Source: a virus. From it: 57,099 nt of DNA. Shown one piece after another: positions 12,784-31,301 of the stretch (positions are counted from its first letter, which is position 1; the number at the start of each line of letters is the position of its first letter). Made by a program: the position numbers and the translations under genes. The stretch lies in the IMG/VR virus record IMGVR_UViG_3300047444_000635, positions 1 through 57,099 of that record; one strand, given 5' to 3'. Under the pieces are notes generated by a model. The model saw only the letters and a program-made list of their open reading frames with translations, made no database searches and had not been told where the DNA came from.

Positions 12784-13004
12784 CGCTCAAGGCCAGCACG
12801 ATGGAGGCCACCCTGTTCGGCCTGCCGCTGACCTACCCGGAGGCCCATGCCTTCTCGGATGTCTCGGCTGGGCACGGCACGCCGGAGCAGAAGGTTTTGC
12901 TCATGTCGTGGGTGGTGAAAATGAGCCTCCTGCATGGGTTGTGGGTCACCGATGCGGTCATGCCGATGATTGAGGCACACGTCCCAGACTTGACATGCCC
13001 CTAA
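12750..13004 (+). CDS. Small protein overlapping promoter P1
   Basis: 84 residues. A basic start (MAKALRPKPVVTLK) is followed by a helical region. Its last five codons contain the -35 box of the promoter at 12990, so the operon ends where the next transcription unit begins. The function is unknown. Confidence 0.55.
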   Translation: MAKALRPKPVVTLKASTMEATLFGLPLTYPEAHAFSDVSAGHGTPEQKVLLMSWVVKMSLLHGLWVTDAVMPMIEAHVPDLTCP

Positions 13005-13018
13005 CAATGTCGTATAAT
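12990..13018 (+). promoter_or_regulatory. Strong sigma70-type promoter P1
   Basis: TTGACA (12990-12995), exactly 17 nt, then TATAAT (13013-13018). Spacer and downstream bases match the promoters at 18262 and 31273. The shared GCCCCTAACAAT spacer block is identical in P1 and P2. A TGGAAGA-TTG-TCTTCCA hairpin (13030-13046) would form at the very 5' end of the transcript, followed by a palindrome copy. Confidence 0.92.
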
Positions 13019-18261: not shown

Positions 18262-18290
18262 TTGACACGCCCCTAACAATTGTGTATACT
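18262..18290 (+). promoter_or_regulatory. Strong sigma70-type promoter P2
   Basis: TTGACA (18262-18267), 17 nt, TATACT (18285-18290). The 12 bases GCCCCTAACAAT of the spacer match P1 exactly, and GTATA before and TACAGT after the -10 match P3. A palindrome copy lies in the leader. Confidence 0.92.
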
Positions 18291-24150: not shown

Positions 24151-24441
24151 ATGTTCTTCGTGGCCCTGCACAAGCCCTACAAGGGCAGGATCGACGACGT
24201 GCTGATCCGCGGCGACCTGATCCTTGAAGTCAGCACCCGTCGCCACAAGAAGCGTGACGACGACTACATCCCCTTCCCCGACGACCCGCCCAAGGTCGCC
24301 GGGGAGGAGAACGGGACGTGGATTTTGGTCGACCGGCTCGGGTGGACACCCGTCACCGAGACGCCAGCCGAAGTGGCCGAGGCCATGCTCAGCGCGGAGG
24401 TGGACTACCGCCGCCGCCTTGAGGCCGCCAAGCCCGCGTAG
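24151..24441 (+). CDS. Small protein, unknown
   Basis: 96 residues starting one base after the previous stop. It is beta-rich at the start (MFFVALHKPYKGRIDDVLIR), has a charged middle (RRHKKRDDDYIPFPDDPPK) and ends in a helix. The structured non-coding stretch follows its stop by 9 nt. Confidence 0.55.
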   Translation: MFFVALHKPYKGRIDDVLIRGDLILEVSTRRHKKRDDDYIPFPDDPPKVAGEENGTWILVDRLGWTPVTETPAEVAEAMLSAEVDYRRRLEAAKPA

Positions 24442-24450
24442 GATACTCTT

Positions 24451-24566
24451 CGTCTCCCGTGGGTGGGAGACGTGGGAACCGACGGATAGCGCCGTCGGCG
24501 GTAAGCACGAGAGAGCCGATACATCCTCGTGCAGCGCGGCACCGATGCCTTCGTCGGGGGCCGCGC
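24451..24566 (+). ncRNA. Candidate structured RNA with four consecutive hairpins
   Basis: Four perfect stems follow one another: CGTCTCCC/GGGAGACG (24451-24472), CCGACGG/CCGTCGG (24479-24498), GCACGAG/CTCGTGC (24505-24532) and GCGCGGC/GCCGCGC (24534-24566, with an inner CCGA/TCGG). Only 1-6 nt separate them. There is no T-tract and no tRNA-like T-loop. The RNA ends 27 nt before the start at 24593, so it may control the polymerase operon or act in trans. The direction of transcription is inferred from the surrounding genes. Confidence 0.6.
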
Positions 24567-24592
24567 ATCATCTTCAACCGAGGGGGGACCCC

Positions 24593-24823
24593 ATGTCGTA
24601 CATCACAGCCATCATGGAGGGCGACGAGGAGCCGATGGACGACCTCGGCCGCAAGGCCGTGATCGCCTTCGGCCACATGGTCGACGAGACGGCCACGCTG
24701 GAAGACCTCGACAACTACCGGGCGTGGCTCACATGGTTGCGGCTGACCGACGTCAGCGAGGCCGACCTGAAAACCTCCGTTGGACTGGCCGAGGCGCTGG
24801 CCCGTAAGCTCGGCGTCGCATGA
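24593..24823 (+). CDS. Small helical protein, unknown
   Basis: 76 residues from ATG 24593 with AGGGGGG upstream. Acidic start, then two helices (GRKAVIAFGHMVDETATLED and DNYRAWLTWLRL). Overlaps the polymerase start by four bases, so it heads the replication operon. Possibly a distant relative of the protein at 6397. Confidence 0.6.
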   Translation: MSYITAIMEGDEEPMDDLGRKAVIAFGHMVDETATLEDLDNYRAWLTWLRLTDVSEADLKTSVGLAEALARKLGVA

Positions 24824-26742
24824 TCGACGTCCGCACCATCACCGCCTTCGACGTGGAGACCTGGGGCAGCGAAGACCTGTTCGCGCTGCAGCCGTTCCGC
24901 CTCGTGAGAGGGGACGCGTGGCTGACGTCCGCGGCGACCGCCTTCTACGACAAGCGCGGCACGCTGCAGACCTCAGTCGTGCGCGAGCCGAAGCCGCTCG
25001 CCCTGGCCCAGTGGCTGGACACGATGGCCGGGAAGTACGTGGTCTGCTGGAACGCGCCCTTCGACGTGGCGTGGCTGCTGGCGGTCGACCTCGCCCACCC
25101 GGAGCTCAACATCCGGGCCAAGGTGTTCGAGGTGAACTGGCTGGACGGCATGCTGCTGTACCGCCACCTGATCAACGCGCCGCGCTACAAGGAAGAGGGC
25201 CGCATGTCGCTGGGCCTCAAGGAGGCGGTGGCCCACCTGTTCCCCGATGAGGCAGGCTACGAGGCGGGCGTCCACTTCAACCCGGTCAACGAGGTCCAGT
25301 GGAAGTACCTTCTGGACTACAACCAGCGGGACAGCCGCTTCACCCTGCGCATCGTGGCTGTGCTGCTCACGATGCTGGCCGAGAAGGTGCAGCGCAACGC
25401 CCTCATCGAGGCCCGCTGCATCCCGCTGGTGGCCGAGACCAAGCTGGCCGGTCTCAGGGTTAACCCTGAGCGCGCCGTGGCCCTGCGCGAACGCCTGACG
25501 GAGAAGCGCGACGCCGCCCTGGTGCAGCTGGCCCTGACCGAAGGGATGCTCGAGTGGCAGAAGATCATCGCCTCGCCGAAGCAGCTGGGCAAGCTGCTCT
25601 ACGAGGACTGGATGCTGCCGATCCCGCACCTTACCGACAAGGGCGCACCGTCCACCGACAAGGAGGCGCTGACCATCCTGGGCCTGCAGGACCCCCGAGC
25701 AAATCTGATCTACACCTACCGGGAGTGCCAGACCCGCAAGACCAAGTTCTGCGACGGGGCGATGGCCTCGCTGGAGTACAACGGCGACGGCCACGCGCGG
25801 CCGGACTTCCGCATCTTTGGGACCTACACCGGCCGCGGCACCTATTCGTCCAAGGTCGGCAAGAACAAAGCCGAGCGGCCGAGCGGCATCGCCATCCACC
25901 AGTGGGTGAACGACCCCGAGTACCGAGCGCTGATCGAGGTGGACGACGACAGCGAACTGATCGAGGCCGACTTCGCGGGCCAGGAGTTCCGCTGGATGGC
26001 GGTCGAGAGCGGCGACGCGGTGATGCTGAACCTCTGCCTGCCCGGCCAGGACGCGCACTCCTACATGGCCGCGCAGATCAGCCACGAGCACACCTACGAG
26101 TGGATCATGGCCAACCGGGAAGAGGACCCGATCGCCAAGGCCATCCGCAAGATGGGCAAGGTGGGCAACCTCTCCTGCCAGTACCGCACCGGGCCGGGCA
26201 CCCTGATGAAGGTGGCCGCCATCCAGCACGGCGTCTACCTGATCTACGACGACGCCAAGCTGGTGACGGATACCTACAAGAAAACCTATCGGTCGGTGCC
26301 CAAGTACTGGTCCCGGCAAATCTACATCGCCAAGTCGCAGGGCTGGGTGGAGACGCTCGCCGGGCGGCGGGTCCACCTGGGCGACTTCCGCGACTGGAAG
26401 GGCCGGGACGAAGACGGCGTGCCCTTCGACTGGACGTGGAGCCACGAGAGCACGGCCATCAACTTCCCGATCCAGGGGGTCGGGGCCGACCAGAAGTACC
26501 TCGCCCTGCTGGTGGCCCGGAACTACCTGCCCAAGGTGGGCGGCAAGTTCCTGATGGAGCTTCACGATGGGATGTTCTTTAGGGTCCCGAAGCCGTACGC
26601 TGAGCGTGCGGCCCGGGACCTAAAGTTCCTGCTGAGCAACCTGCCTTACAAGCGGGCCTGGGGGGTGGACCTGCCTATCGAGTTCCCCGTCGACGTGAAA
26701 CGCGGCCCGCACTGGGGCGCATTGAAGGAGATTAAAGCTTGA
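24820..26742 (+). CDS. polA-like: Family A DNA polymerase with 3'-5' exonuclease
   Basis: 640 residues. The exonuclease domain has FDVET (10-14), NAPFDVAW (about 78-85) and YNQRDSRFT (about 168-176), matching the DnaQ-type metal ligands. The polymerase domain has motif A DFAGQEFR (about 385-392), motif B RKMGKVGNLSCQYRTG (about 442-457) with the essential R and K but a divergent end, and motif C HDG (582-584) instead of the usual HDE. It lacks a 5' nuclease domain, as is normal for phage enzymes. This is the replicative polymerase. It is coupled to genes on both sides. Confidence 0.95.
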   Translation: MIDVRTITAFDVETWGSEDLFALQPFRLVRGDAWLTSAATAFYDKRGTLQTSVVREPKPLALAQWLDTMAGKYVVCWNAPFDVAWLLAVDLAHPELNIRAKVFEVNWLDGMLLYRHLINAPRYKEEGRMSLGLKEAVAHLFPDEAGYEAGVHFNPVNEVQWKYLLDYNQRDSRFTLRIVAVLLTMLAEKVQRNALIEARCIPLVAETKLAGLRVNPERAVALRERLTEKRDAALVQLALTEGMLEWQKIIASPKQLGKLLYEDWMLPIPHLTDKGAPSTDKEALTILGLQDPRANLIYTYRECQTRKTKFCDGAMASLEYNGDGHARPDFRIFGTYTGRGTYSSKVGKNKAERPSGIAIHQWVNDPEYRALIEVDDDSELIEADFAGQEFRWMAVESGDAVMLNLCLPGQDAHSYMAAQISHEHTYEWIMANREEDPIAKAIRKMGKVGNLSCQYRTGPGTLMKVAAIQHGVYLIYDDAKLVTDTYKKTYRSVPKYWSRQIYIAKSQGWVETLAGRRVHLGDFRDWKGRDEDGVPFDWTWSHESTAINFPIQGVGADQKYLALLVARNYLPKVGGKFLMELHDGMFFRVPKPYAERAARDLKFLLSNLPYKRAWGVDLPIEFPVDVKRGPHWGALKEIKA

Positions 26743-31272: not shown

Positions 31273-31301
31273 TTGACACGCCCCCCTACATATCGTATAA
31301 T
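31273..31301 (+). promoter_or_regulatory. Strong sigma70-type promoter P3
   Basis: TTGACA (31273-31278), 17 nt, TATAAT (31296-31301). It begins 2 nt after the helicase stop. The downstream TAGTGTACAGTTTGG resembles both P1 and P2. No palindrome lies in this leader. Confidence 0.92.

Follow-up and report, generated by a model that had tools for sequence, protein, structure and literature searches.

Which function, if any, is served by a run of hairpins in the noncoding DNA ahead of a phage DNA polymerase gene? We addressed this question in a virus sequence of 57,099 nucleotides (IMG/VR record IMGVR_UViG_3300047444_000635, positions 1 to 57,099; the whole stretch is referred to here as the window). 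A first-pass annotation of the window had described four perfect stems as a candidate new phage RNA, naming Rfam and covariation searches as possible checks. The four successive stems lie exactly where they had been placed, at 24451 to 24566 on the plus strand, with gaps of 6, 6, and 1 nt (Table 1). The plus strand from 24440 to 24580 folded to −69.9 kcal/mol, compared to −54.2 ± 4.2 kcal/mol for dinucleotide shuffles (z = −3.72), and 0 of 200 shuffles folded as well, in agreement with the earlier view that such stems are unlikely by chance. The minus strand of the same segment folded less well (z = −2.83; 4 of 200 shuffles as good). ARAGORN found no tRNA or tmRNA in the window, eliminating tRNA identity for the element, and no T-tract follows it, indicating that no intrinsic terminator is present there; both absences had been noted previously. 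One pairing had not been described, namely, that hairpin 3 forms half of an H-type pseudoknot, formed by CGG(U), which precedes UAAGC, and (G)CCG in the hairpin loop.

Table 1. Features of the RNA element and its surroundings in the window
Feature	Position	Strand	Details
Upstream 96-aa ORF	24151-24441	+	Ends 9 nt before P1; conserved in L191 to L194
Candidate weak sigma70 promoter, TTGAGG-17-GATACT	24419-24447	+	8/12 consensus matches; overlaps end of upstream ORF
P1, 5' hairpin	24451-24458/24465-24472	+	8 bp; loop GUGGGU
P2 hairpin	24479-24485/24492-24498	+	7 bp; directly abuts pseudoknot
Pseudoknot helix, 5' strand CGGU	24499-24502	+	CGG 24499-24501 extended by U24502
AA linker	24503-24504	+	Little or no variation in alignments A3 and A4
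P3 as plain hairpin	24505-24511/24526-24532	+	7 bp
P3 in pseudoknot model	24505-24510/24527-24532	+	6 bp
GAGAG inside P3	24511-24515	+	
CCG inside P3	24516-24518	+	
AUACAUCC inside P3	24519-24526	+	
Pseudoknot helix, 3' strand GCCG	24515-24518	+	G24515 extends CCG 24516-24518; partner 24499-24502
P4 hairpin	24534-24566 (outer 24534-24540/24560-24566)	+	7 bp, GCGCGGC/GCCGCGC
Shine-Dalgarno-like GAGGGGGG	24579-24586	+	Of the next (76-aa) ORF
76-aa ORF	24593-24823	+	First gene after RNA; no Pfam match
DNA polymerase, family A	24820-26742	+	PF00476, E = 8e-39; linked to the RNA more often than any other gene

A search with the polymerase returned three close IMG/VR phages, all carrying the element at the same place, with compensatory changes in the stems and a preserved core (CGGTAAGC...GAGAGCCG..ACATCC). 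Pattern scans located this core in more distant phages as well, the true matches being noncoding and upstream of DNA polymerase, and about 60 distinct relatives were recovered from IMG/VR (loci are denoted by L numbers). Polymerase-guided searches contributed 38 and 80 loci, within which a structural descriptor revealed that CGG/CCG had changed to CCG/CGG, CGC/GCG, GGC/GCC, or GAC/GUC. The swapped form, CCG/CGG, occurs in L195. One element-bearing group encodes a polymerase of a quite different subfamily (alignments A1 and A2). Spurious matches were discarded: coincidences in coding sequence made up most of those to the first pattern, GAGAGCCGNNACATCC, which was not stringent enough, and all 13 in genome contigs. 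Of the 87 matches from the last scan, many arose by chance, and a match was retained only if it had both P3 and the pseudoknot pair.

The pseudoknot was evaluated without bias by the pattern TAAGCNGTGAGAGN{8,36}ATCCRCNGC, which leaves three bases on each side free. This pattern found 84 stretches, compared to a chance estimate of about 3. The bases outside the pattern, that is, the three before UAA and the three after GAGAG, paired in 59 of 59 distinct sequences, using 15 different 3-nt combinations (shuffled controls: mean of 13.8, maximum of 26; registers shifted by 1 to 3: 0 to 9). One match (L340), located in a coding context, was unpaired and was excluded. For the pseudoknot, P3, and P4 in an alignment of 38 sequences, the fraction of paired cells was 97.9%, compared to 75.1% after shuffling and 26 to 47% in slid registers. 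Changes on both sides were seen in 13 of the 15 pairs, and the covariation score was 0.64 (0.22 shuffled; ≤0.16 slid). Pairing in P3 reached 99.5%, and both partners had changed in 4 of its 6 pairs and in 6 of 6 pairs of the P4 outer stem, while the GAGAG and AUCC loop segments were nearly invariant. All three core helices (pseudoknot, P3, and P4) thus covary strongly, ruling out chance hairpins as the origin of the stems. We consider it virtually certain that the RNA is real and conserved.

Adding divergent members to the alignment revealed a fourth pseudoknot pair, which is U-G in 31 of 36 rows and C-G in five sequences. Because such wobble pairs are U-G on the plus strand only and mismatches on the other, the plus strand is the functional one, and RNA is favored over single-stranded DNA. 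These U-G pairs, frequent on one strand only, argue against a single-stranded DNA structure or an RNA primer serving as replication origin or primosome site, even though such a site would account for one copy per genome, the position beside replication genes, and the fixed orientation, and a similar DNA reading has been considered for STAXI (PMC2864571). Also contrary to an origin, some members precede terminase operons, and GC skew in the window has no turning point near 24.5 kb (its minimum is at 44.9 kb). We regard an origin or primosome site as the least probable of the explanations considered here.

Across the family, the core comprises a pseudoknot helix of 4 to 5 bp, AA, a P3 of 5 to 6 bp, GAGA, and the pseudoknot 3' strand, followed by a loop of 6 to 36 nt ending in AUCC, the P3 3' strand, and then P4. 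The segment GGGAA-stem-CGGTAA had been put forward as a possible conserved core; its CGGTAA part is conserved, whereas GGGAA is not. P1 is confined to the window-type clade, occurring with altered stems and a GGGU loop in L191, L192, and L194. The P2 position is occupied by a hairpin of other composition in L191 to L195, L204, and L218 and in about half of the relatives. P4 has an inner stem besides the outer stem and CCUU in its loop in the window; in most relatives, it has a UGA bulge and a UCCUUU-type loop. This loop often reads CCUCCUUUC or UCCUUU (L321, L348, L355, L375, and others), resembling the 3' end of 16S rRNA (anti-Shine-Dalgarno), and could pair with the Shine-Dalgarno sequence downstream. 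By inspection, a marine group (e.g., L232, L258, and L321) has two more hairpins between P4 and the next Shine-Dalgarno sequence, a P5 of 4 to 5 bp and a P6 of C5-6/G5-6, which suggests a full RNA length of 150 to 200 nt in this group.

The element precedes genes of several kinds. Most copies lie 0.3 to 2.5 kb upstream of a family A DNA polymerase, behind differing genes, and at about 75 loci the RNA is upstream of the polymerase, always in sense orientation. The upstream order in polymerase loci is VWA/metallopeptidase ... VRR-NUC-like or 96-aa ORF and then the RNA, and the downstream order is small ORFs, polymerase, PD-(D/E)XK nuclease, and SNF2 helicase. Elsewhere, the element is found before an AAA_24-DUF669-helicase operon (L361 and L372), an SSB operon (L323), a terminase-portal operon (L377), and an Sf6-type small terminase (L337). 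The earlier suggestion of a cis regulator of polymerase expression is well supported by sense placement upstream of polymerase in most relatives but is too narrow, given the members that head terminase, SSB, and AAA/DUF669 operons. In the pair L437/L438, the element follows a small ORF (in the cro position; no Pfam match for that of L437) beside a divergent S24 repressor and before AAA_24/replication genes, which is the nutR/putR position. The model score of this pair is weak (E = 0.02), yet the pseudoknot bases pair, P3 comprises 6 bp, and a P2 directly adjoins the pseudoknot.

In nearly all relatives, the element precedes the Shine-Dalgarno sequence and start of the next ORF, an arrangement compatible with a translational operator or riboswitch in which the pseudoknot, through binding of a metabolite or of a phage protein such as polymerase or SSB, governs initiation at the adjacent Shine-Dalgarno sequence. 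The loop of P4 is rich in pyrimidines (CCUUC in the window) and is a possible pairing partner for the Shine-Dalgarno GAGGG, the downstream genes are usually replication genes, and the leader pseudoknot of T4 gene 32 provides a precedent (PMC535899). The adjacent ORF, on the other hand, is not conserved: the 76-aa ORF, whose stop overlaps the polymerase start, is not kept as a family across relatives, and by inspection the next ORF varies (zinc-ribbon-like, coiled-coil, or hydrolase-like). The polymerase itself lies at a distance behind different genes, some members stand ahead of terminase operons, and no Rfam riboswitch matched. We consider an operator or riboswitch unlikely, although it is the alternative to which we give the most weight.

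The element is often intra-operonic and overlaps the stop codon of the upstream ORF. In L028, L086, L091, L141, and L144, the TAA of CGGTAA is the stop of the upstream VRR-NUC-like ORF (..IPFGR*), and coding and RNA constraints overlap at the start of the motif. Stop-codon readthrough, considered from CGG-TAA at the end of that ORF, was rejected because the upstream ORF ends earlier in the window and in many relatives. The intra-operonic position over a stop codon, together with variable downstream genes, would suit segmental control of mRNA, whether by an element for RNA processing or stability or by a small self-cleaving ribozyme, that gives the downstream part of the operon mRNA a defined 5' end. 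A compact pseudoknot with nearly invariant loops (AA, GAGA, and AUCC) points the same way. Weighing against this explanation, no Rfam ribozyme family matched and the alignment reveals no cleavage site, and we judge it to be rather improbable.

A candidate promoter overlapping the end of the upstream ORF (Table 1) places the predicted transcription start at the foot of P1. A site with 8 of 12 consensus matches and a 17-nt spacer lies directly before P1 in 5 of 5 window-type phages (shuffles as good, 3 to 13 of 300 each); since these five phages are related, the evidence for a promoter is suggestive only. The site falls below the threshold of the consensus scanner and, in a phage of 67% G+C, is far exceeded by three strong sigma70 promoters. 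These perfect or near-perfect sites (TTGACA-17-TATAAT or TATACT; plus strand, 12990 to 13018, 18262 to 18290, and 31273 to 31301) are probably the main host-type promoters of the phage. Downstream in the window, intrinsic terminators were no more numerous than expected (8 against 8.2). In L361 and L372, CUUUUCUUUUCUUUU, a U-rich tract, follows P4, resembling an intrinsic terminator, unlike other members; we rejected this identity for the element, as its terminator-like look is limited to these two loci and the window has no T-tract.

The promoter-like site at the 5' end in the window clade and the stable fold would also be compatible with a trans-acting small RNA transcribed from that site, as the first-pass annotation had proposed. 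No terminator follows, the element is always in sense orientation at operon heads, and in most relatives it merges into the next Shine-Dalgarno sequence or overlaps the upstream ORF. We found no support for a trans-acting RNA and consider it very unlikely.

The element was single copy in each whole phage record searched, with one exception. In the 90-kb contig of L337 (record G004), mirror-image copies at positions 973 and 2544 have the same flanking gene, most likely reflecting an assembly palindrome. Among A1 polymerase loci whose upstream DNA was long enough, the element was detected in about 9 of 33 at the sensitivity used, as it was in about 22 of 80 A2 loci, many of which are truncated. 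It is thus common without being universal; this sets a bound on how essential it can be but leaves the covariation intact. Loss of the stems while the flanking genes stay, which had been regarded beforehand as evidence against the RNA, was accordingly seen in part among the A1 loci; the covariation stands. Around the polymerase genes of Xp15, Effie, Almagne, FF47, RHph_TM3_14A, KPP25, and Rollin, which have related polymerases, there was no match. Comparison with isolate phages and plasmids by blastn gave nothing credible, and 754 bacterial genomes from two classes contained no exact pattern match. Two viral contigs of one isolate genome (L402 and L412; IMG 2882316996) each contained one copy, making a culturable host for the element likely.

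Scans of the window and ten relatives against the 4,227 families of Rfam 15 at the gathering threshold gave no match, and a permissive scan of the 800-nt neighborhood returned only a chance miRNA match; a known RNA family, including known riboswitches and ribozymes, was therefore rejected. The EAR/epsC model (RF01735) accordingly had no match at the gathering threshold, and it did not match three members at E ≤ 10 either. A literature search found no description of this RNA; a set of 224 motifs from 2017 was outside its coverage and represents a remaining risk. The proposal of a new phage RNA is well supported by covariation, conserved sense placement, and the lack of a known family. Measured against the resources consulted, the family is new; its role is probably of a known kind.

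An RNA of established structure, strand, and conservation, which each phage carries once, in sense orientation and either leading an operon or within one, probably controls the expression of the genes that follow. Since neither the operon nor its first gene is constant among the phages, action on the whole transcript is favored over control of a single gene. By analogy with put and EAR, our leading, though tentative, reading is that the element is a cis-acting operon-leader RNA of a new structured family, possibly an antiterminating one. It would act on its own transcript, most likely on the elongating RNA polymerase, contacting a host or phage protein; the nascent RNA would make the polymerase resist pausing and termination, and long downstream operons would be fully transcribed, as with HK022 put and Bacillus EAR/epsC. 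Given that the window has no terminator excess, the targets would be Rho-dependent terminators or no terminators. For antitermination speak the promoter-like site that abuts the RNA in the window clade, as putL abuts PL, and the nutR/putR position of L437/L438; action in cis is favored by the place of the element ahead of the next Shine-Dalgarno sequence in nearly all relatives. Against it speak an architecture unlike put, the many relatives with the same gene order in which no copy was detectable, the low score of L437, and the terminator-like P4 of L361/L372. Confidence in antitermination is kept low because of the missing terminator excess and because we infer the function only. A fuller claim is held more guardedly still: the element may represent a new class of phage RNA whose pseudoknot fold is unique and which works directly on the transcription machinery (alternatively, it may bind a ligand or cleave itself); recombination would have spread it among unrelated phages, placing it before replication or packaging operons.

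To our knowledge, structured RNAs that reprogram RNA polymerase by themselves are very rare (put and EAR). The element constitutes a well-defined structured RNA family that Rfam 15 does not contain and that many marine and environmental phages carry ahead of their replication genes. If it is antiterminating, the mechanism could be tested in many hosts, given how widespread the phage family is and how clear its consensus; if it is instead an operator, riboswitch, or ribozyme, it would still be a new class.

Among known systems, STAXI (RF01728) consists of two or three tandem pseudoknots in Enterobacteriales (PMC2864571). Like STAXI, the element is a pseudoknot RNA near SSB or other DNA-manipulation genes of mobile DNA, but it is single in each phage record, has P4, and does not match RF01728. 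In T4, gp32 represses its own mRNA via a leader pseudoknot, an operator of about 28 nt followed by UUAAA repeats and bound by gp32 (PMC535899). The element resembles this operator as a phage leader pseudoknot 5' of a Shine-Dalgarno sequence in a replication-gene context; unlike it, the element has P4, and often P2, P5, and P6, precedes many different downstream genes, and has no UUAAA or UAAA repeats before the next Shine-Dalgarno sequence. EAR/epsC is a pseudoknot RNA with reported antitermination activity (PMC2864571). The element is likewise a pseudoknotted cis RNA upstream of long operons, whereas EAR occurs in host operons of Bacillales and its model does not match the element. HK022 put, an RNA of about 70 nt with two stem-loops, acts on the zinc-binding domain of the RNA polymerase β' subunit, and putL abuts PL (PMC9378689). 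Unlike put, the element has a pseudoknot and P4 core and other conserved sequence, and its antitermination is putative. In common with put, it has no obvious phage protein partner and, in the window clade, is a phage cis RNA at an operon head just after a promoter, here a predicted one.
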